The notes beneath the pieces were generated by a model. That model had not been told where the DNA came from. It did no database searches and saw only the letters and a list, made by a program, of their open reading frames with translations. This document shows positions 14,211 through 51,065 of a DNA stretch of 56,324 bases, piece by piece. This DNA is from a virus. Made by a program: the position numbers and the translations under genes. The stretch's first letter is position 1. The number at the start of each line of letters is the position of its first letter. Location: positions 1 through 56,324 of the IMG/VR virus record IMGVR_UViG_3300027969_000124. One strand, written 5' to 3'.

Positions 14211-15920
14211 TTATGCGACCAATTTAATTTTGTTGAATGCGATAGCACCAAGGTCTTCTACCTTGCGAACGATCACCGAATTTTTGTAGATGTCTGTCAC
14301 GTCAGACATGATGCCGACACCTATCGTTGTGATGCCCAGTGACTCACCCGCTTTGACCTGATCACGCACGGCAGAGGGGTTGCCACGTCCATCGGTGATC
14401 ACAAAGCAGATCTTGCGTTGTGCATCTGTACCGTGCAACATCTCATGGGCATAACGCACTGCAAAAAAGTCATTAGTTCCACCGCCTGAGATAACGTTGG
14501 GCATGACAGCCAATGCCTTCTTGGCGGGTAAGGCGAACGGTTTCAGCACTGCTGTCTCGCATCCAAATGTCAGCACTGCCGTCTGCACTTGTGCAGAGTT
14601 AAGCGCATCGACCAGTGATGCACAGGCATTGAGACCCGCTTGGATGGGGGATAACTTGCGCTTGAAGTTGAACATCGAACCCGATACATCCAACACGATC
14701 ACGACAGCGGAGTCGATACCATCGACATCTAATCTACGTTTAAACAGGCGATCATTGCCCGATGGAATTGTGTGCAAGGTACGCACGTTGACCGACCCCG
14801 ACTTGCGTCCGACTTGGTGATCGCTTGTGCCTGTGTTATCGAACAAGCGACGAACCTCGAACCGTAACTTGGCAGAGACGTTCACGTCAGCGTTCAGTTC
14901 ATAGTGACGTTGATTGCGGTAGTGCGACTCAGTGAGACCGCTCGACTTGGAGTACGTACCGTCAGCACCCGCACCATCGGGTGCTTGGTTAGTTGGCTCG
15001 ACCTCACGTGCGTAGGGGAGATTACCCTCGTTGTCAGTTGGGTTTTGAGCGTCACCCACTGGAGCGTCCGAACCATCGGATGCACCCTCACCCTCACCCT
15101 CGTTCTGATCGGGGCTTGTAGACCCCTTCTCGCCCTTCCCTGACCCCTCGCCCTGACCCTCGCAAGGTTGACCTTCTGTAGGTTGACCCTCGCCCTTGCC
15201 CTTGCCCTGACCTTTGCCCTGACCGTCACCTTGTGGCTTAGGGTTGGGGTTGGGTTTAATGCTCTTCAATTGATCGGCAACCCACAGGGCGATAGCCAAG
15301 GTGTCTTCACTGGTTTTAGCGGTAGCAAGGCGGTCACGTGCCACGTCAAATATTGGCTTGAGACCGTTAGCCAATGGCACTTTGCGAGTCGCATGTTTAC
15401 GTGCATAGACAGCCAACACAAAGGGGTACTGCTCAGGGCTAGACCAATCGACAGGTTGTGTGAAAGATTCAGCGACCATACCATCGACCAGTGAGGAGAG
15501 GAGACCCTCAGCATTGCCGACTAACTTCTCGTCGATACAACGGTGTTCGATCATTGCGTCTTCCAGTGCGTTGTGCAGTGAGCGGACATAGTGAACCTCA
15601 GTGCGTCCGACTTGGAAGTCGGTGTACTTACGGTGCAACAACTCATGCAAGATGAACCCAACATAACGCTCGAATACTGGGCGGGTGATCACTGCATTGT
15701 CGGCAACGTTATGCAAGACGATGTCACCGTGATTGTTGATCTTGGCAGTGGGTGTCCATGCGTCCCATGCCACGGTCACTGGGGCAAGGGCTAACTCCTT
15801 GCAGATTTTGTGGGTAGCCTGTTCGATGGCTTTGCGAAACTCGACCCCGTTTAAACGGCTACGTGAAAACACTACGCATTTGTCACCACCAACGATGACG
15901 TGTTTTGTTTGTTGTTGCAT
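14211..15920 (-). CDS. VWA-domain metallopeptidase-like protein (CobT/DUF2201-like)
   Basis: A 569-residue protein. The N-terminal domain carries HELLH (92-96) and ALEDAMIE (118-125), matching the zinc site of VWA-associated peptidase-like domains. Residues ~222-330 are a low-complexity linker rich in G, Q, E and K. The C-terminal VWA domain has the MIDAS motif DVSGSM (411-416) and GGGTNDFF. Encoded next to a MoxR-type AAA+ ATPase, the usual partner of such proteins. The pair resembles CobS/CobT in layout, but no other cobalamin gene is present, so a chaperone or remodelling role is likelier. AAGGAG precedes the ATG. Confidence 0.85.
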   Translation of the reverse strand: MQQQTKHVIVGGDKCVVFSRSRLNGVEFRKAIEQATHKICKELALAPVTVAWDAWTPTAKINNHGDIVLHNVADNAVITRPVFERYVGFILHELLHRKYTDFQVGRTEVHYVRSLHNALEDAMIEHRCIDEKLVGNAEGLLSSLVDGMVAESFTQPVDWSSPEQYPFVLAVYARKHATRKVPLANGLKPIFDVARDRLATAKTSEDTLAIALWVADQLKSIKPNPNPKPQGDGQGKGQGKGKGEGQPTEGQPCEGQGEGSGKGEKGSTSPDQNEGEGEGASDGSDAPVGDAQNPTDNEGNLPYAREVEPTNQAPDGAGADGTYSKSSGLTESHYRNQRHYELNADVNVSAKLRFEVRRLFDNTGTSDHQVGRKSGSVNVRTLHTIPSGNDRLFKRRLDVDGIDSAVVIVLDVSGSMFNFKRKLSPIQAGLNACASLVDALNSAQVQTAVLTFGCETAVLKPFALPAKKALAVMPNVISGGGTNDFFAVRYAHEMLHGTDAQRKICFVITDGRGNPSAVRDQVKAGESLGITTIGVGIMSDVTDIYKNSVIVRKVEDLGAIAFNKIKLVA

Positions 15921-15932
15921 GTTGTCTACTCC

Positions 15933-17417
15933 TTAGATGTTGTTAGAAATAAATGTCTCGTCGATGCATGCCACACGGATCGCTTCCAGTGCGGTAGCCG
16001 ACTCTGAGGGTTGGCGGTTGGCGATAGTCGCATCCCACGCATCCTTCACAGGCAAGACCTTCAATGCTTTGATGAATGCCACGACAGAGCGGATGCTAGG
16101 TGCGTCCACGATATCGGCACTCTGTACCTTCTGACGTGCCACACGCACCGACTTGAGTACGTGCTTGGCTAGATCCTTGGTGCATCCAGTGTGACGCACG
16201 ACAGCGTCGATCTCAGCGTCGATGGGTAGGTAATCCATGCGGATCACCTGTGCAAAGCGGTCAATGAATGCAGAGTTCATCGCCTTTGTACCCGCATAGC
16301 GTCCGCTCTCATCGCCCGAACCAAGGGTGTTATCAGCACCGAACACTAGCACCCCAGTGGCACGCTTATGCACCTGACCGCCATAAGACACCGCACTATT
16401 GGGTTCGAGGAAACCGTTCAAGATCGCCAAGATGGCGGGGTCTAGGTTGCTTGGCTCGTCCAAGAGGATGACAGTGGATGGATGGGCATAACCCATTAAG
16501 AAATCTTTCTTCTCAAAGTAAGTACCTTTGACAGGGTCATAGCCTGTCGCACCGATGAAGTCTTCCACTTGCGTTTGCTTGGTAAAGTTTATGCGTTTAA
16601 ACGCACGACCTGTGTAGCCCGCAAAGTTGCGAGCGGACTCGCTCTTGCCTGTACCCTTGTCACCGCCCATCCATACTGGGGACTCTGTCACGTCAGCCAA
16701 GAGGAAGTGACGCAAGACCTTCTCAGTCCACACAAAGTAGGGATCGATGGCGGGGGCAGAGGGGTCATTCCAAATGCGAACCATTACAGGGTTGCCCTTG
16801 GGGTCTAGCACCTCGACACCGAACACGTCCAGTGCGGTCTTGGTATCGGTCACGTAGACACTCGCAATGTCAGCGACAGTGGTTTGTACACCCGCTGTCT
16901 CGACTGCCGTCTTGAACGGTGCGAATGCGTCAGCGACTACCTTGTTGACGGCACGTGTGATGGAGTCTTCATCGATGTTGACTGCCCCGATGGCGGTCTC
17001 TGCCTTGTCGAGTCGGTTTGCAACACCGCTTGCGAACTTGGCGGTTGAAACGATGGAGTCGCTGAGACCCTCTATTTTTTTGAGCAGATCAACTTGAACA
17101 GCGTTAGCCCTTTGCAGTGCGTCGAGGGCGGTTGTCTCTGCACGTGATGCGACAGCGGACGTTGCGTCCAGTTGTGCGCCTAGAGCGGGGTCAGTGCCTT
17201 GCGGAGCGGATTGGTAGGGGGTTGACTTGCGGATCGCTTCGATACCAATGTCGGGTGAATGACTGTAGTTGTCGATCACGTAAAGGGTGAGGGTATCGAT
17301 CTCTTCGATCGGGTTGAGGTTCGTGCCATGACCTAGCACGTGCAATGCACCCTTGCGGACAGCAGAGGGGATGCGTGAAATTTCGGTGCGAATTACGGTG
17401 CGTGTGGATGCGGACAT
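15933..17417 (-). CDS. MoxR/CobS-type AAA+ ATPase
   Basis: A 494-residue protein started at ATG 17417, where AGGAG is 8 bases upstream; the ATG at 17423 is too close to that site. Walker A GGDKGTGKS (251-259), Walker B VILLDEPSN (~316-324), a pore-loop-like region and a sensor FGADN are visible. The N-terminal ~190 residues include a coiled-coil (RAETTALDALQRAN...LLKKIEGL) not typical of MoxR. It likely drives the VWA protein encoded 12 bases downstream, and the SprT-like protease gene is just upstream. Confidence 0.87.
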   Translation of the reverse strand: MSASTRTVIRTEISRIPSAVRKGALHVLGHGTNLNPIEEIDTLTLYVIDNYSHSPDIGIEAIRKSTPYQSAPQGTDPALGAQLDATSAVASRAETTALDALQRANAVQVDLLKKIEGLSDSIVSTAKFASGVANRLDKAETAIGAVNIDEDSITRAVNKVVADAFAPFKTAVETAGVQTTVADIASVYVTDTKTALDVFGVEVLDPKGNPVMVRIWNDPSAPAIDPYFVWTEKVLRHFLLADVTESPVWMGGDKGTGKSESARNFAGYTGRAFKRINFTKQTQVEDFIGATGYDPVKGTYFEKKDFLMGYAHPSTVILLDEPSNLDPAILAILNGFLEPNSAVSYGGQVHKRATGVLVFGADNTLGSGDESGRYAGTKAMNSAFIDRFAQVIRMDYLPIDAEIDAVVRHTGCTKDLAKHVLKSVRVARQKVQSADIVDAPSIRSVVAFIKALKVLPVKDAWDATIANRQPSESATALEAIRVACIDETFISNNI

Positions 17418-17434
17418 TGTCATTACTCCTATGT

Positions 17435-18031
17435 TTAAACGGTGAAGAGATCGCCATCGACTGGGCATGTAGGCAGTCCATAGGATGCCCATTTTGAGGT
17501 CAGTCGCACGGTGTAGCCACATGATGGGCAGTAGGCTTTCAGCATGCGAGTGCCTTGTTTTTTCTTACGCTGTCCCACTGTCAGTGAGCCATGTGGGTAT
17601 GCACCCAGTGATTCGATAATTGCACCGTAGGTCTGAGCAAACCCACTAGCACCACGTGTAGCACCCCACGGTTCTCTACGTGTGGGGTCTATTGGTTCGA
17701 GCATCATTGCCGATGCGATTTTTTGGAAGTTGATACCGTGGTTAAAACCCCCCTTGGCGGTATGGCACAACTCATGCACCACTACCTCGAATACCTCGCT
17801 TGGACTAGCCAACTTGGGGTGTATGAAGATCTCATGGTGACCGTCCGCAGATGCGGTATCGATCCAACACTCGCCAATGGCATTGGAGCGGAGTGCGTTA
17901 GAGGGAAGACCGCACGTCAGGCGAACCCTCTCAGGTAATTTAGAACCCGCAACCTCAAAGGCGGGACGTAACTCTTGGAATGCTTGGGTGAGCCATTGCT
18001 CACGTGTGGCATGGATGGTAGGCAGTGTCAT
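17435..18031 (-). CDS. SprT-like zinc metallopeptidase
   Basis: A 198-residue protein with HELCH (86-90), a third histidine in FNHG (H98) and a C-terminal zinc ribbon (CPSCGY, TCPVDG). This is the SprT/Spartan arrangement, implicated elsewhere in cleaving DNA-protein crosslinks. Its stop codon is inside a GTTTAAAC palindrome 16 bases before the ATPase start, so the three genes form one transcript. It is preceded by a duplicated two-hairpin leader (18051-18089). Confidence 0.85.
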   Translation of the reverse strand: MTLPTIHATREQWLTQAFQELRPAFEVAGSKLPERVRLTCGLPSNALRSNAIGECWIDTASADGHHEIFIHPKLASPSEVFEVVVHELCHTAKGGFNHGINFQKIASAMMLEPIDPTRREPWGATRGASGFAQTYGAIIESLGAYPHGSLTVGQRKKKQGTRMLKAYCPSCGYTVRLTSKWASYGLPTCPVDGDLFTV

Positions 18032-28318: not shown

Positions 28319-28825
28319 GTGAATCAGACTAATGTAAAACAAGCACACCTAAACGGTAGTGGTTTTTTGGTTCTTGGACGCAATCGTGTAAGAGGCATTT
28401 CTTTTACTGGTTCAGCTACGGCTGGATTTGTTGCGTTATTTGATACTACTACCGCACCCGTAACTACTGCTACTTATGGTCGTTCTGGAACTACCGTAAC
28501 CGTCACTCAATCCGCGCATGGACTTGCAAATGGTGATGTTATTGGTATTGACTTTGCCGCAGGAACAGGCGGTACAGCTACCAATGGCAACTATGTGGTA
28601 ACAGTCACTAATTCAAGCACGTTTACGGTTACAGACATTAACTCTGGAACTATTACTGCTTCTCCAGCAATGGTGTATTCAAGCCGCTGGTTGATGACAT
28701 ATGATGTGGCGGCTAGTGATACTTTTAACAATGCTCCGCTTATTCCAGAAGACGGCGTATTAGCTGTAAACGGCATCTATGCATATATGTCTAACGTAGT
28801 AGCTTGCAATGTTTTCTATGGCTGA
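28319..28825 (+). CDS. Virion structural protein with FCCH-like domain, GTG start
   Basis: A 168-residue protein with GTG start preceded by AAGGAG. Residues ~60-105 (VTQSAHGLANGDVIGIDFAAGTG...NGNYVVTV) match the short beta domain known from the E1 FCCH family that is common in phage virion proteins. Probably decorates the head or neck. Start possibly controlled by the masking hairpin upstream. Confidence 0.75.
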   Translation: MNQTNVKQAHLNGSGFLVLGRNRVRGISFTGSATAGFVALFDTTTAPVTTATYGRSGTTVTVTQSAHGLANGDVIGIDFAAGTGGTATNGNYVVTVTNSSTFTVTDINSGTITASPAMVYSSRWLMTYDVAASDTFNNAPLIPEDGVLAVNGIYAYMSNVVACNVFYG

Positions 28826-29561
28826 TAAAAGTTTTAACTTAATTGGTCGCAAGCTAATGATTGCGATCCCTTGTTACGATGGCAAAGTAAACATCAGAAC
28901 TGCTTTTGCCATTGCTGAACTCGTGCCTAAGTTAGACAAGATGGGTGTACGACTAAGCCTCGTACACATATCTGGCTGTTCAATCATTACTAAAGCACGG
29001 AACAAATTAGTCCGTAACTTTATGGAATCAGATTGCACAGACTTCTTATTTGTAGATGCTGATGTAGTGATTAACACAGATGCTGTTACTCGTCTACTAG
29101 CTTTGGCAACAGACAAAGATGTTGTAGCTGGATCGTATCCACGCAGAGCAAAAGATGCTAAGTTCTTCCTTGACTTCCATCTAGATGAGAATGGTCAGTT
29201 AGAGTTTGATGAGAATGGTTTGATGAGAGTGGAAAGCGTTTCCACAGGATTCATGCTTATCCGCCGTCATGTCTTTGAATACATGATTGAGAAGCATCCA
29301 GAATGGGAATACAAAGGCGATGGTGACGGCGAAATAGAACACGCCATATTCGACTTTATGATTCTTGATGGTCAATACATTGGCGAAGATTATGCTTTCT
29401 GTTTGAGAGCAAGGACTGAAGGATTTAAGATTTACTTAGACCCAATGATCAGTCTGCCGCACATTGGCACAGAAGAATTCACTAGAGACTTTGAGAAAGA
29501 TGTTTTGCGTCCTTTGTTAAAGGAGCATGCAAAGCCTCAACTGAAAGTTGCAAATGGCTAG
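28818..29561 (+). CDS. Glycosyltransferase (GT-A, family 2-like)
   Basis: A 247-residue enzyme started at ATG 28818 (8-base overlap); ATG 28809 is the alternative. IAIPCYDGKVNIRTAF at the N-terminus and the metal-binding FVDADVV (D80xD82) identify a GT-A fold, followed by GSYPRRAKDAKF and IGEDYAFCLRARTEG. It may glycosylate virion proteins (the adjacent Ser/Thr-rich ones are candidates) or surface polymers. A phage enzyme among structural genes is unusual but known. Confidence 0.85.
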   Translation: MADKSFNLIGRKLMIAIPCYDGKVNIRTAFAIAELVPKLDKMGVRLSLVHISGCSIITKARNKLVRNFMESDCTDFLFVDADVVINTDAVTRLLALATDKDVVAGSYPRRAKDAKFFLDFHLDENGQLEFDENGLMRVESVSTGFMLIRRHVFEYMIEKHPEWEYKGDGDGEIEHAIFDFMILDGQYIGEDYAFCLRARTEGFKIYLDPMISLPHIGTEEFTRDFEKDVLRPLLKEHAKPQLKVANG

Positions 29562-45478: not shown

Positions 45479-47584
45479 ATGCCACTAAAAAAATTAGCTC
45501 TAAGGCCGGGGGTCAACAAAGAGAACACTCGCTATACCAATGAAAACGGCTGGTATGACTGCGACAAAATCCGATTCCGTCAAGGTACACCTGAGAAGAT
45601 CGGTGGGTGGCAACGCATCTCAGCCAATACGTTTGTTGGTATTTGCCGTTCTTTGTGGACTTGGGTAACTCTTGGCTCTCAAAGGCTAATTGGAGTAGGC
45701 ACTAACTTAAAGTTCTATATTAGTTCTGGTGGCGCTTATTACGATATAACACCTACGCAATTTGTTCATACGCTGACAAATCCATTTGCTACGCAAAGCG
45801 GCTCCACTACCGTTACCGTGACTGACGCTACTGGTGGATACATCAACAACAACTTTGTAACATTTAGTGGCGCTACAGCTGTAGGCGGTATCACCATCTC
45901 TGGCGAGTATCAGCTTACTTACGCAAGCGCTACCACTTATACGATTACAGCTGCGTCGGCAGCTTCATCAAATGCAACAGGCGGCGGTACTGTTTATGCT
46001 GTATACCAAATCAATGTAGGCCCAGCTTACGCAGTCCCGTTAGTTGGATGGGGTGCTGGTACATGGGGAAGCGGAACATGGGGCGTTGGTACAACATCAA
46101 ATGATGCCATGCGCTTATGGAGTCAGAGTAATTTTGGCGAAGACTTAATCTACGGGCCAAGGGGTGGGCCGATTTACTACTGGGATGCTGGAATTGGTTA
46201 TCAAGACTCCACAATCACCATGACCATAGCCACTCCTTGTGTTGTATCGTCTACTATTATTTTGCCTAATTTGTCGGCAATTATTTTTCAAACAACAGGC
46301 GCATTGCCTACGGGCTTATTGGTTGGAACAATTTACTACACAAGGTATGTCTCATCTACAACATTTAATTTATCACTAACCCCTACAGGCGCTTTGATAA
46401 ATACTACAGGCAGTCAGTCTGGAGTTCATTCCATATCCCCAAGAGGCATGGATATTACGACTTTTGCGGCGGCTTCTAACTGCCCAATCATCCAAAACTA
46501 CATCCTTGTTTCAGATATAAGCAGGTATGTATTTGCATTTGGCTGTAATGCCCTTGGCTCAACCACTCAAGACCCAATGCAGATTCGCTGGTCAGATCAA
46601 GAATCTGTGGTTGAGTGGACTCCTGCCGCCACTAATACGGCTGGTGATCTGCGTTTGTCTCACGGTTCTAAAATCGTTACAGCCATGCAGGCTCGCCAAG
46701 AAATATTGGTCTGGACTGACTCATCTCTTTATTCTCTCCAGTACGTTGGCGCTCCTGTGGTCTGGGGTTCTCAGTTGGTGGGAGACAACATATCTATCGC
46801 TGGAGAAAATGCTGTTGGTTACGCTAACGGTGTAGCTTATTGGATGGGTGTGGATAAGTTCTATAAATATGATGGACGCACACAAACACAATCTTGCGAT
46901 CTGCGACAGTTTGTATTTGAGAATATTAACAAATCCCAGTTTGACCAAGTTATGTGCGGAACAAACGAGGGCTTCAATGAGGTGTGGTGGTTCTATGTCA
47001 GCAATGACAGCGTGGACTCCAAGATTGATAGTTATGTGGTTTACAACTACCTTGAGCCAGACGGCAAAGGCGGAACTGGCGTTTGGTACTACGGCTCTAT
47101 GGGTAGAACGGCGTGGCTTGATTCTGGTTTAAGAGACTATCCAATTGCTGCCACTTATAACTACAACATTGTTGACCATGAGATTGGCGTGGATGACAAA
47201 GCCACCGCTACTACAGTTCCTATTGAGGCTTACATCACATCTGCGGAATTTGACATTGATGACGGCGATAGGTTTGGTTTTATATGGCGTGTAGTACCAG
47301 ACATTACATTCCGTGGATCTACGGCGGCAAGCCCGCAAGTTACGATGTATCTCAAACCTATGCAGAACTCAGGCTCTGGATATAACGACCCAGCATCTGT
47401 GGGAGGTGAGTCTTCAGCCACTATCACCCGCACGGCAGTTCTTCCTATTGAAGCATTTACAGGGCAGATCTATACAAGGGTTAGAGGCCGTCAGATGGCT
47501 ATGGAAGTAAGGTCTACGGCAGAGGGTGTAACTTGGCAACTAGGATCCCCCCGCCTAGACATTAGACAGGACGGCAGACGATGA
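45479..47584 (+). CDS. Tail hub protein (P22 gp10-like)
   Basis: A 701-residue protein. The start LKKLALRPGVNKENTRYTNENGWYDCDKIRFRQGTPEKIGGWQ is a pattern of podophage tail hub/DNA-stabilisation proteins. The body is beta-rich with an inserted Ser/Thr domain (~100-175) and WSDQESVVEWTPAATNTAGDLRL. It likely closes the connector below the adaptor rings. Confidence 0.8.
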   Translation: MPLKKLALRPGVNKENTRYTNENGWYDCDKIRFRQGTPEKIGGWQRISANTFVGICRSLWTWVTLGSQRLIGVGTNLKFYISSGGAYYDITPTQFVHTLTNPFATQSGSTTVTVTDATGGYINNNFVTFSGATAVGGITISGEYQLTYASATTYTITAASAASSNATGGGTVYAVYQINVGPAYAVPLVGWGAGTWGSGTWGVGTTSNDAMRLWSQSNFGEDLIYGPRGGPIYYWDAGIGYQDSTITMTIATPCVVSSTIILPNLSAIIFQTTGALPTGLLVGTIYYTRYVSSTTFNLSLTPTGALINTTGSQSGVHSISPRGMDITTFAAASNCPIIQNYILVSDISRYVFAFGCNALGSTTQDPMQIRWSDQESVVEWTPAATNTAGDLRLSHGSKIVTAMQARQEILVWTDSSLYSLQYVGAPVVWGSQLVGDNISIAGENAVGYANGVAYWMGVDKFYKYDGRTQTQSCDLRQFVFENINKSQFDQVMCGTNEGFNEVWWFYVSNDSVDSKIDSYVVYNYLEPDGKGGTGVWYYGSMGRTAWLDSGLRDYPIAATYNYNIVDHEIGVDDKATATTVPIEAYITSAEFDIDDGDRFGFIWRVVPDITFRGSTAASPQVTMYLKPMQNSGSGYNDPASVGGESSATITRTAVLPIEAFTGQIYTRVRGRQMAMEVRSTAEGVTWQLGSPRLDIRQDGRR

Positions 47585-47931
47585 CATTCATTATTACCTC
47601 TGAGTCTGATCTCAATAGGATTGCCGCTCCAGCGCTTCCATCACCCACACAAAGTTATTCTGACGTATATCAAAACCAGTTTAATAATGTTTTGCGTTTG
47701 TATTTCAATCGTATACAGGGCATATTAGACCAACTAAATACAGATAGCGGCATAATCCCAGCCCTTACTGTTTACACGGTTGCAACGTTGCCAAGCGCAG
47801 TTACATCTAGCGTTGGCGCTAGAGCGTTTGTGTCAGATGCAACAGTAACAACTTTTGCCTCCACGGTTGCTGGAGGAGGAGCCAATAAAGTACCTGTATA
47901 TTCCGATGGAACAAACTGGAAAATTGGATGA
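47581..47931 (+). CDS. Conserved small tail protein
   Basis: A 116-residue protein: a helical N-terminus and C-terminal VGARAFVSDATVTTFASTVAGGG...VPVYSDGTNWKIG, a pattern found at the ends of phage tail proteins. Overlaps both neighbours by 4 bases. Confidence 0.75.
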   Translation: MTFIITSESDLNRIAAPALPSPTQSYSDVYQNQFNNVLRLYFNRIQGILDQLNTDSGIIPALTVYTVATLPSAVTSSVGARAFVSDATVTTFASTVAGGGANKVPVYSDGTNWKIG

Positions 47932-48209
47932 ACTTTATTGAACTTCTTAACAAGGTAGCCAGAGTCGCCCGTCCGGCTCACCATGAGTTTGTCCCTATTG
48001 AGCGGATGGACGAGAGGTTTGAGGAAACTTGTTTTGACTCTCTAGACATGCTGATGATTGGCATGTTCATGGGCATGATCTACGACATAGATGACGAGAT
48101 ATCCAAAGAGTTCCAGCCTGAGACCGTGCAGGAACTTTATGACTTTATACAGTTAAACAAAAAGCATGATCCTGTATCTATAGAGTGGGCGCTGGAGCAG
48201 ATTAAATGA
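47928..48209 (+). CDS. Acyl carrier protein-like protein
   Basis: A 93-residue protein with the ACP signature: the phosphopantetheine attachment site FDSLD (S38), following helix DMLMIGMFMGMIYDIDDEIS and the C-terminal TVQELYDFIQLNKKHD. Its length and acidity fit ACPs; the N-terminus is longer than usual. The stop overlaps the start of the ketosynthase gene (ATGA), linking the two functionally. Loading would need a host phosphopantetheinyl transferase, as none is seen. Confidence 0.8.
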   Translation: MNFIELLNKVARVARPAHHEFVPIERMDERFEETCFDSLDMLMIGMFMGMIYDIDDEISKEFQPETVQELYDFIQLNKKHDPVSIEWALEQIK

Positions 48210-49309
48210 TCCACCTAACGCACTACCGCACGGCATATTCAACTACGGTGGAGTTGATGGAGGGTGTCTTCCCCCAGAAAGTTCACTGGTTTCCAGAGAC
48301 ATATGCGCGTGTAAACAGTGGGATGTTCTACGTTCCCCACCGTGTTGCTGACAAAGTACTTGACCCAGTCCTAGCCAAAGAACTAAGGGAAAACCCTGTG
48401 GGTAAGACTGCATTTATTCTTGCTGGTGGAAACTCTCACTTTGCAGGAATTAACCCCCGATCCAAGGATCCTACAAGGCTGTCTTATGAATATAAGTTCC
48501 TACCATTTACTCTTACTCAAGTGTATGCAGGAAGAACAGCCCAAGCCTTGGGTGCTACGGATCATGTTGTTACCGATGCCACAGCCTGCGCCTCCAGTCT
48601 TAAAGCGCTGATGGATGTACAGACCCTAATTAACTTTTATGGGTTTAAACGTGTAATTGTCCTGACGGTAGAGGATGCTGTTACCAACTCAGTCCTTGAG
48701 TTCTTTGGAGAAGCCAAGGCATCTCTTACCAAGAAAGAGGAAGATTTAGGTGTTAAGCCATCTGCCTTTGATGAGACAAACTACGGGTTCTTTGTGGGTC
48801 AAGGCGCGGCTCTGGCGGTGTTTGAGTCCAGCGACGTATCAGAGAACCCTATAGCCATTCTCAAGGGAGCCTATACAGCCAGCGAAGATCACTCGAACGC
48901 TATCGGCCAGCGAGAGGATGGGCAAGGGTTCATTCGTGCGATTGAGGGGGTTCTAGACATAGCCCGTACCCCCGCCGAGCATATAAGCATTGTCAAAACG
49001 CACGGTACTGGAACAAAGTCCAACAACGTGGCTGAAAAAGCGGCTTTGGCGTACACGTTAGACCAATATGTCGCCACCTCGTACAAGCAAAAGATAGGTC
49101 ATACGATGGGTGCCAGCGGTCTATTGGAAACTCTATTATTAATAGATAATATCCTCTCTGATGAGATAGTTCCCTGTATCGCTAACAGGACTGCCTATGA
49201 CGAAGTATTTCTGTCGGAAGATGTCAAAGTGCCACAGGGCGATATATTGACTCTTGCGGCGGGTATGGGCAATGTGTACTCGGCGGCTGTGCTGTCGTTG
49301 GAGATATAA
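48206..49309 (+). CDS. Beta-ketoacyl-ACP synthase-like protein (KAS I/II fold)
   Basis: A 367-residue condensing enzyme. The triad is complete by pattern: C128 in DATACASSL, H266 in KTHGTGTKSN, and H299 in KIGHTMGASG with lysine K294 five residues before it as in FabF. C-terminal AAGMGNVYSAAV matches the usual glycine-rich GFGG-like end but lacks the classic FGFGGxN form. It is ~45 residues shorter than FabF, mainly at the N-terminus. It sits between tail and internal virion genes and is coupled to an ACP gene. It probably condenses acyl chains, or transfers an acyl group to a virion protein. Confidence 0.87.
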   Translation: MIHLTHYRTAYSTTVELMEGVFPQKVHWFPETYARVNSGMFYVPHRVADKVLDPVLAKELRENPVGKTAFILAGGNSHFAGINPRSKDPTRLSYEYKFLPFTLTQVYAGRTAQALGATDHVVTDATACASSLKALMDVQTLINFYGFKRVIVLTVEDAVTNSVLEFFGEAKASLTKKEEDLGVKPSAFDETNYGFFVGQGAALAVFESSDVSENPIAILKGAYTASEDHSNAIGQREDGQGFIRAIEGVLDIARTPAEHISIVKTHGTGTKSNNVAEKAALAYTLDQYVATSYKQKIGHTMGASGLLETLLLIDNILSDEIVPCIANRTAYDEVFLSEDVKVPQGDILTLAAGMGNVYSAAVLSLEI

Positions 49310-49747
49310 ATGTCAAAGATGATAGACAGTAACAAGCAAAAACTGGATTTTGCGCAAATTGTTGTAATTGCGCTGGAAAACACACGCTCAAATTATCCAA
49401 TTAAAGCGGCTCTTCCGGCCATTTTGACTGAGGTTACTCAGCCAAATACAGATGTAAAGCAGATGGGCAACACCGTATTTATTTTGCATGATGGAAATGA
49501 TGGACAAGCAGTTTTTAAGGCTTTAAACGCAGACATTCCAAGAAACTTTTTGCAAAGTGCTAGAAAATATGTGGTGTACGCAAAGAATGAATTGGGTATG
49601 GATGTATTGATTACTGAATTTTCCGATCCAGCAATTAGCACATTATTTCATGCAATTTCTAAAAATCCGCCTATGGAGGGTATGGGGTTCAAAGAGTACA
49701 AAACCGCCAAAGGTGCGTACCGCATTGTTTTGAATTTAGGACATTGA
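49310..49747 (+). CDS. Conserved late hypothetical protein
   Basis: A 145-residue protein: N-terminal helix, then TDVKQMGNTVFILHDGNDG and the C-terminal GMGFKEYKTAKGAYRIVLNLG. The end matches a family of phage proteins next to internal virion genes. Directly follows the ketosynthase gene, so a shared function is possible but unproven. Confidence 0.7.
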   Translation: MSKMIDSNKQKLDFAQIVVIALENTRSNYPIKAALPAILTEVTQPNTDVKQMGNTVFILHDGNDGQAVFKALNADIPRNFLQSARKYVVYAKNELGMDVLITEFSDPAISTLFHAISKNPPMEGMGFKEYKTAKGAYRIVLNLGH

Positions 49748-49748
49748 T

Positions 49749-51065
49749 ATGAGCGCAGTATCAGATTCATTAGCCGATTTCGATGACTCAGTGCGCGAAG
49801 AAGTTTCTTCTGTTGGAGAAACTATTCAAGACACGGGTCAGGCGGTTATTGATACCGCTGTTACACCTGTAGTAAAGGCCGTTCAAAACACCTACGATGC
49901 ATTTGAAAAAGACCCTGTAGGAACGACTTTAAAACTAGCGGCTGCTGCGTCTGGAGACCCGACGCTCATCATGGCGACAAATACAGCCGTCAATGTGGCT
50001 CAAGGTCAAGACATTAATGATGCGTTAGAAAATGCGGCAAAACAAACCGCCGTGACTTATGCCTCTATTGAAGCGGGTAAATACGCGGCAAGTGAATTTG
50101 GAACTCCAACCGCAGAGCCTATTGTTGACATAGAGGCTGGCCCAACACCGACTATTGAAACAGCAGCCCCAGCGCCATCCGCGCCTGTAACCAACACAAT
50201 TATTAAATCAGGAACTCAAGGCGCTACTAGCGCGGCTTTGCAGGGCAAAGATCCAATTGAAGGCGCTACGTCAGGCATAGTATCTTCTGGCGTTAGCTCA
50301 GGCATTAACGCAGGAACAAGCGCAGCCTCAAAAGAAGTATCTGATGCGGATTTTGAAAAATGGTCTCAAGAACAAGCAGAAAAATCTTACGAGAACGCAC
50401 CTAGCCCAACAGAGTTGGAGGTGATGGCGGCTGACAATACAGTTGCTTTGCCGCCTGCAACAACCACGACAGAGACTGGGCCGGGTTATTACAACGAGGC
50501 TACGGGTCAATTTGTGCCAAGCGAAACTGGCACGGCTCCTTTAGACAATACCTCCGGAACTAATCTGGATAGTATGAAGGACTACACCTATGACACTGCG
50601 ACCAATACTTGGACTTCCCCTGATGGCGAGGTAATCAGTTTAAACGACTTATCTAACACACAGACTCCGTTAGACACTGAGTCAGTTCTACCGCCTCCTT
50701 CTGTTGCAGATCCAGAGGCATACAACCCATTGAATGTTAAGCCTGCGCTGGACTATGCGGCAAAGGCTGCGTTACAAAAGGCTGCGGCAGATAAAGCAGC
50801 AGCGGCAAGAGCGGCGGCAGCTAAGGCGGCTCAAGCAAATGCGGGGCAGACAACGCAGTCAAATAACCTTCTGGGATTGCTTGCGTTGCTAGATACCAAA
50901 GCGCCACAAGCCCCTGTTCAAAATCAATCAAACGACATAAAATACTTCTATGACATTATGGGCAATGAGATATTGCCGCCCGCCCCCGAAAAGACCGCAA
51001 AACCTGTGTTTGATTTTGCCGAAGGCGGGACGATAGAAGACCTAATCCGAATGCTGAGGAGTTAA
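49749..51065 (+). CDS. Putative internal virion protein
   Basis: A 438-residue Ala/Thr/Pro-rich protein. The N-terminal ~110 residues are helical, followed by low complexity (EPIVDIEAGPTP ... AAAKAAQANAG) and a C-terminal FDFAEGGTIEDLIRMLRS. The FAEGG motif recurs in other late proteins. Likely packaged or tail-associated. Confidence 0.7.
   Translation: MSAVSDSLADFDDSVREEVSSVGETIQDTGQAVIDTAVTPVVKAVQNTYDAFEKDPVGTTLKLAAAASGDPTLIMATNTAVNVAQGQDINDALENAAKQTAVTYASIEAGKYAASEFGTPTAEPIVDIEAGPTPTIETAAPAPSAPVTNTIIKSGTQGATSAALQGKDPIEGATSGIVSSGVSSGINAGTSAASKEVSDADFEKWSQEQAEKSYENAPSPTELEVMAADNTVALPPATTTTETGPGYYNEATGQFVPSETGTAPLDNTSGTNLDSMKDYTYDTATNTWTSPDGEVISLNDLSNTQTPLDTESVLPPPSVADPEAYNPLNVKPALDYAAKAALQKAAADKAAAARAAAAKAAQANAGQTTQSNNLLGLLALLDTKAPQAPVQNQSNDIKYFYDIMGNEILPPAPEKTAKPVFDFAEGGTIEDLIRMLRS

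Follow-up and report, generated by a model that had tools for sequence, protein, structure and literature searches.

Why would a phage keep an acyl carrier protein (ACP) and a beta-ketoacyl-ACP synthase (KAS) among the genes for its virion? We investigated this question in a 56,324-nt stretch of viral DNA, IMG/VR record IMGVR_UViG_3300027969_000124 (hereafter the window, to which all coordinates refer), where such a gene pair lies between a gp10-like tail hub gene and internal virion genes. We observed that the two genes encode an ACP and a KAS with invariant catalytic residues, that they are under purifying selection with a conserved coupling of their reading frames, and that they move together with a third gene, D1, which follows directly. 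We tentatively favor reading the cassette as an acyl-ACP system owned by the phage, in which the pair would make a dedicated acyl-ACP and D1 would transfer the acyl group in most phages, and we consider this reading to fall slightly short of probable.

Relatives were collected by scanning IMG/VR, which gave 221 KAS relatives, and further scans seeded with D1, ACP and divergent KAS sequences led to a set of 172 distinct KAS sequences including that of the window. Searched as a single sequence, the ACP gave only a weak signal to an acyl carrier protein family (phrog_5934, E 0.027), no match in Pfam and only unrelated PPE proteins in the PDB. A profile of the ACP family retrieved plant and other ACPs from the PDB (2ava, E 4e-4), whose serine falls on that of the phage family. 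The AlphaFold2 model of the protein (pLDDT 93.8) matched almost exclusively structures of ACPs and peptidyl carrier proteins (best Z 8.1) and has the four-helix fold of a type II ACP, with the serine of the DSL motif at the start of helix II, which begins at residue 38. The motif D37-S38-x-D40 is invariant in all 169 ACP sequences, and the median dN/dS of the family is 0.07. The first-pass annotation had proposed an ACP from the motif around S38; the modeled fold, its structural matches and the never varying serine agree with this, and we regard the predicted product as an ACP.

The assignment of the second gene follows from sequence homology. Its product matches both Pfam domains of the family, PF02801 (E 2.7e-15, 56.8 bits) and PF00109 (E 4.1e-10, 40.1 bits; cut-off 20.8), and the PDB sequences it matches are other KAS enzymes, with E values down to 1e-19. 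The match to the N-domain, PF00109, starts only at profile position 139; the phmmer alignment to 3kzu extends back to residue 19 of the phage protein. In all 172 distinct sequences C128, H266, K294, H299, E277 and a C-terminal GMG are invariant, and the median dN/dS is 0.09. The KAS identity, the C128/H266/H299 triad and the supporting K294 claimed from the single sequence are thus found across the whole family, and the protein is indeed shorter than FabF at its N-terminus (~367 aa). Because the catalytic residues are completely conserved, we infer that the enzyme acts as a KAS. With FabB and FabF (PF00109 plus PF02801) it shares the Cys-His-His triad, the active-site lysine, the HGTGT and GHxxGxxG motifs and an adjacent ACP gene, but it differs in its shortened or divergent N-terminal part and its C-terminal loop, and in the scans made the family was seen only on phage contigs. 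The top NCBIfam model is FabF (TIGR03150) with 99.3 bits, far under the equivalog cut-off of 493.75, so that by its score the phage KAS is not a FabF equivalog, and its closest cellular match has ~31% identity. On these two grounds we rejected a simple recent pickup of a host FabF. Unannotated matches in records named as Listeria, Enterococcus and Staphylococcus phage (24–30% identity) look like contamination with host KAS and were set aside. PHROGs families exist for both proteins of the pair (phrog_35856, E 4.2e-42; phrog_28189, E 9.4e-6), both labeled ‘unknown function’.

Next to the identity of the two proteins, the arrangement of their genes is conserved. The reading frame positions and the ATGA overlap given in the first-pass annotation are exact, and the overlap is kept in most loci compared (Table 1). 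The order ACP-KAS-D1 is fixed at 139 distinct loci; a scan with D1 brought 70 new loci, 64 of them with all three genes, and the remaining six begin inside the KAS gene. An earlier suspicion that the gene at 49310 may belong to the set is borne out by this order and by the shared movement described below. With a median dN/dS of 0.10 for D1, all three genes are under strong purifying selection. Invariant residues, low dN/dS and conserved ATGA coupling indicate that the enzyme is likely selected for catalysis. Chance or mis-called open reading frames (ORFs) were rejected as an explanation by homology, by dN/dS values of 0.07–0.10 and by the conserved coupling.

The three genes share a history that differs from that of their neighborhood. 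Pairwise distances of ACP, KAS and D1 agree with each other (Spearman 0.72–0.78) better than with those of the gp10-like protein (0.50–0.60), whose gene lies outside the mobile cassette and is inherited separately. In five loci (L004, L005, L006, L007 and L044) the ACP is 85–90%, the KAS 86–91% and D1 66–74% identical to the window, whereas the gp10-like protein is only 25–26% identical. The same holds for Caudoviricetes sp. ctpbd312 (MW202545, Manatee Spring), which has the order ACP-KAS-D1-D2 with identities of 66% for KAS, 52% for ACP and 49% for D1 and just 25% for gp10; there the KAS is annotated as 3-oxoacyl-ACP synthase, and ACP and D1 as hypothetical. Conversely, among 76 further loci with a gp10-like protein 62–80% identical to that of the window, many of them on short contigs, no member of the trio is seen in 70; in five a D1-like gene stands alone, and in one an ACP gene is truncated where the contig stops. 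In eight trio-less loci that we inspected, gp10 is followed by a small gene and then directly by the internal virion genes. The cassette is also absent from the region examined in HTVC027P, HTVC023P, DSL-LC04, Pag-Yong1 and CRP-902, which are relatives by TerL and gp10. Judged from these comparisons, ACP-KAS-D1, together with the N-terminus of the following protein D2, behaves as a transferable block between phage lineages. None of the grounds for doubt named in the first-pass annotation came about: the ACP model has the predicted fold, S38 and the triad are without variation, and the pair is conserved in other phages. When 84,980 species genomes were scanned with a pattern, a single close match turned up, L083, on a phage-like 37.6 kb contig in a metagenome-assembled genome of Balneolaceae. 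The remaining matches there have scores typical of a host KAS; the stretch of the contig that was read looks like phage DNA and could have been binned wrongly, so that no host was assigned.

What D1 does is central to the function of the cassette. Its AlphaFold2 model (pLDDT 91.8) has GNATs as best PDB matches in Foldseek, and VIA-align gave Z values of 12.4 to HP0935 and 12.0 to RimI; N-alpha-acetyltransferases, RimI and Ard1 among them, are some of the nearest folds. On the basis of this model we are confident that D1 has a GNAT fold. At the sequence level, a D1 profile found nothing among PDB sequences, and Pfam gave chance-level matches only, none of them to T7 gp13 or the RtxC family. The pyrophosphate loop by which GNATs contact coenzyme A (CoA), Q/R-x-x-G-x-G/A, is absent: none of 155 D1 sequences has Gx[GA] in region 72–82, where the loop reads NAD[T/I/V/S/K]. 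Position 113, where the usual GNAT tyrosine would be expected by motif position rather than by residue-level superposition, is a phenylalanine in 152 of 155 sequences. H60 was considered as a catalytic histidine and rejected since it is variable (present in 143 of 155). Known enzymes offer a precedent for a GNAT fold working on ACP. The RtxC enzyme ApxIC has this fold with the CoA-contacting elements missing, and RtxC proteins use acyl-ACP (PMC8339906, a review); LuxI-type synthases resemble GNATs in structure, and 3-oxoacyl-ACP is the substrate of some of them (PMC8188788). These cases make D1 a plausible acyl-ACP-dependent transferase, and from its modeled fold and its linkage it is probably such an acyltransferase. 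With the RtxC/HlyC toxin-activating enzymes D1 has in common a GNAT fold devoid of CoA-contacting elements; no RTX-type substrate was seen.

The favored acyl-ACP system would work as follows. The holo-ACP synthase of the host would modify the phage ACP with phosphopantetheine at S38. The phage KAS would condense an acyl primer with malonyl-ACP, which could come from the host or be the phage ACP itself in malonylated form, or would otherwise load the dedicated ACP; the product of the pair is probably 3-oxoacyl-ACP. In most phages D1 would then move the acyl group from the ACP to an amine acceptor, either a small amine or a protein. As many close relatives lack the cassette, we regard it as cargo, which moves between phage lineages and would act in the infected cell. 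A more far-reaching form, that the phages evolved a self-contained acyl-ACP pathway whose CoA-independent GNAT-fold enzyme transfers a 3-oxoacyl group to an amine and thereby yields either a new lipid amide made by the virus or a phage or host protein that carries a lipid, seems to us rather unlikely. A special case of the acyl-ACP system would be a signal or antagonist: the trio would make a small 3-oxoacyl amide of the N-acyl amino acid or acyl-homoserine-lactone type that acts on the host population or on competitors. A KAS without a reductase predicts a 3-oxoacyl product, as some of the GNAT-like LuxI enzymes use, and in lineage L400 the pair lies near an Asn_synthase-like ATP pyrophosphatase and an S-adenosylmethionine (SAM) methyltransferase. 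However, D1 does not resemble LuxI in sequence, we identified neither a receptor nor a regulator, and host reductases could reduce the product; we consider this case improbable.

Several observations weigh against the acyl-ACP system as a whole. Five relatives have a D1-like protein but neither ACP nor KAS, and the reverse is seen in two lineages (L400/L415 and L472/L480), where ACP-KAS stands without D1 among early-type genes, namely a DNA methylase and, by reading of their sequences, exonuclease-like and helicase-like proteins. Hence D1 is not obligatory, and a purely virion-tied role of the cassette is unlikely to be general. Moreover, ordinary GNAT genes adjoin the internal virion genes in CRP-902 and MW202675, two phages without ACP and KAS, so that the position of D1 alone proves nothing. 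Neither LuxI nor RtxC/HlyC is among the 50 fold matches listed for D1, and no sequence-level match to HlyC or LuxI was found. Finally, the reaction of the KAS itself may differ, as judged from its sequence: Pfam recognizes nothing in its first ~90 residues, and the C-terminal glycine loop, already described as deviating in the first-pass annotation, reads GMGNxY, unlike the GFGGTN-type loop that is usual in FabF.

The early-region pairs without D1 speak for the main alternative for ACP-KAS, a modulation of host fatty-acid synthesis. Here the phage KAS and ACP would plug into the type II system of the host, whose FabG, FabZ and FabI would finish the chain, so that membrane lipids are raised or altered and D1 is unrelated. 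The pair would form a minimal elongation unit: reductase and dehydratase are present in the host, and neither was found in the window ORFs covered by our Pfam scans. The same scans, which comprised the larger ORFs, agree with the earlier remark that no further fatty-acid gene is nearby. The nearest published case offers a precedent: three roseobacter prophages have been reported to carry acpP and fabF as auxiliary metabolic genes, in the order fabG-acpP-fabF of the bacterial operon (PMC8224337). Like them, the cassette has an ACP gene adjoining a KAS gene in a phage region, but fabG is absent, the proteins have diverged strongly and the KAS gene is followed by one for a GNAT fold. A dedicated, very divergent ACP would be needless for boosting fatty-acid synthesis, the KAS is far from cellular FabF, D1 stands beside the pair in nearly all loci and most copies lie in the virion block, where the expected late expression would come late for lipid supply. 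We consider the modulation of host synthesis unlikely.

The GNAT genes in phages without the pair lead to another explanation, in which D1 is a morphogenesis factor of the internal virion genes like T7 gp13, unrelated to ACP-KAS, and the linkage is inherited synteny. A cobavirus GNAT (cobavirus pc40) whose gene adjoins those for internal virion proteins has been compared to T7 gp13, and a role in morphogenesis was proposed for it (PMC6775973). D1 shares with this type the fold and the position, and solo D1-like genes occupy the same slot as well. However, the CoA loop is missing from D1, which accompanies ACP-KAS in lineages with different gp10 genes. The D1s linked to KAS keep D6/S7, E41 and M125/G126, whereas the solo relatives do not, and the D1 profile does not retrieve the ordinary GNATs of the CRP-902 and MW202675 slot. 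We regard a gp13-like role of D1 as somewhat unlikely.

The genes flanking the cassette are of unequal constancy. To the left of the ACP we found four unrelated groups of genes across the trio loci, and the U1 family of the window precedes the ACP in just 24 of 138. To the right of D1, a single family, D2, follows in 108 of 115. This constant neighbor suggests that D1 might transfer the acyl group carried by the ACP to an internal virion protein, for instance to the N-terminus of D2, and so ease the passage of this protein into the host membrane. Most of 113 D2 sequences start with M[S/G/A] followed by A or G and usually V, small residues that would be exposed once the methionine is removed, and N-alpha-acetyltransferases are among the nearest folds of D1. 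But small second residues are common anyway, and several D2 counterparts in trio-less loci likewise begin with MS, MA or MG. D2-like domains are also present in phages without the cassette, a conserved lysine as potential acylation site was sought in the D2 N-terminal domain and none was found, and the lineages with the pair in an early region have no D1. Acylation of a virion protein has lost ground as a general rule, and we judge it very unlikely.

Table 1. Genes and junction of the ACP-KAS-D1 region and its flanks in the window
Feature	Position	Strand	Basis or remark
Phage acyl carrier protein (ACP), 93 aa	47928..48209	+	Predicted phosphopantetheine site S38 in FDSLD
Beta-ketoacyl-ACP synthase (KAS), decarboxylating KAS I/II type, 367 aa	48206..49309	+	C128/H266/K294/H299
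ATGA overlap of ACP stop and KAS start	48206..48209	+	Sequence; −4 spacing kept in 73 of 81 loci
D1, GNAT-fold protein, 145 aa	49310..49747	+	AlphaFold2 model; no CoA pyrophosphate loop (NADT/I in its place); Phe at 113
D2, probable internal virion (ejection-type) protein	49749..51065	+	N-terminal domain is the constant right-hand neighbor of the cassette
P22 gp10-like packaged-DNA stabilization/tail hub protein	45479..47584	+	phrog_3287, virion structural protein, E 1.5e-54
U1, small gene of the virion block, between the gp10-like gene and the ACP	47581..47931	+	Neighbor comparison

Relatives of the gp10-like gene carry the annotation ‘stabilization protein’. Some further genes in the window and in related loci were recorded in passing. 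In L328 (9015–10342) a D1-like gene in the slot between gp10 and the internal virion genes, without ACP or KAS, adjoins a gene for a ‘predicted metal-dependent hydrolase’ (PF10118, E 1.4e-42), which may be an alternative enzyme partner of the D1-like protein. In L400 the genes near the early-region pair (277–2709) comprise a C5 DNA methylase, the ATP pyrophosphatase (Asn_synthase/QueC-like) and the SAM methyltransferase, and this group could be a larger biosynthetic set. A glycosyltransferase occupies the slot between gp10 and the internal virion genes in HTVC023P and HTVC027P, and the window itself has a weakly glycosyltransferase-like protein within its head and packaging block (28809–29561, + strand). 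On the − strand, neighboring VWA (CobT-like) and AAA (CobS/MoxR-like) genes at 14211–17522, labeled in PHROGs as cobaltochelatase and porphyrin biosynthesis, are adjoined by an SprT-like gene (17435–18031). An ORF at the start of the record (33–1001, + strand), which could be the last part of a longer gene, has an LPD38 domain, as is typical of the large polyvalent proteins that phages inject.

In the open-access PMC literature, which is a subset of what is published, we found no description of this cassette. Lipid-metabolism genes of phages are usually single and derived from the host. Here, a distinct phage-owned carrier and enzyme family is intact across at least 172 distinct sequences, is mobile as a cassette and lies mostly in the virion block. 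The three proteins are small and could be expressed and assayed directly in E. coli. Taken together, a large group of uncultured phages own an ACP and an apparently intact KAS, usually followed by a GNAT-fold D1, so that an acylated product of their own is probably formed in the course of infection. The role of the cassette may lie in host lipid remodeling or in a lipid-derived product, and, if active, it would be a new viral route to an acylated product.
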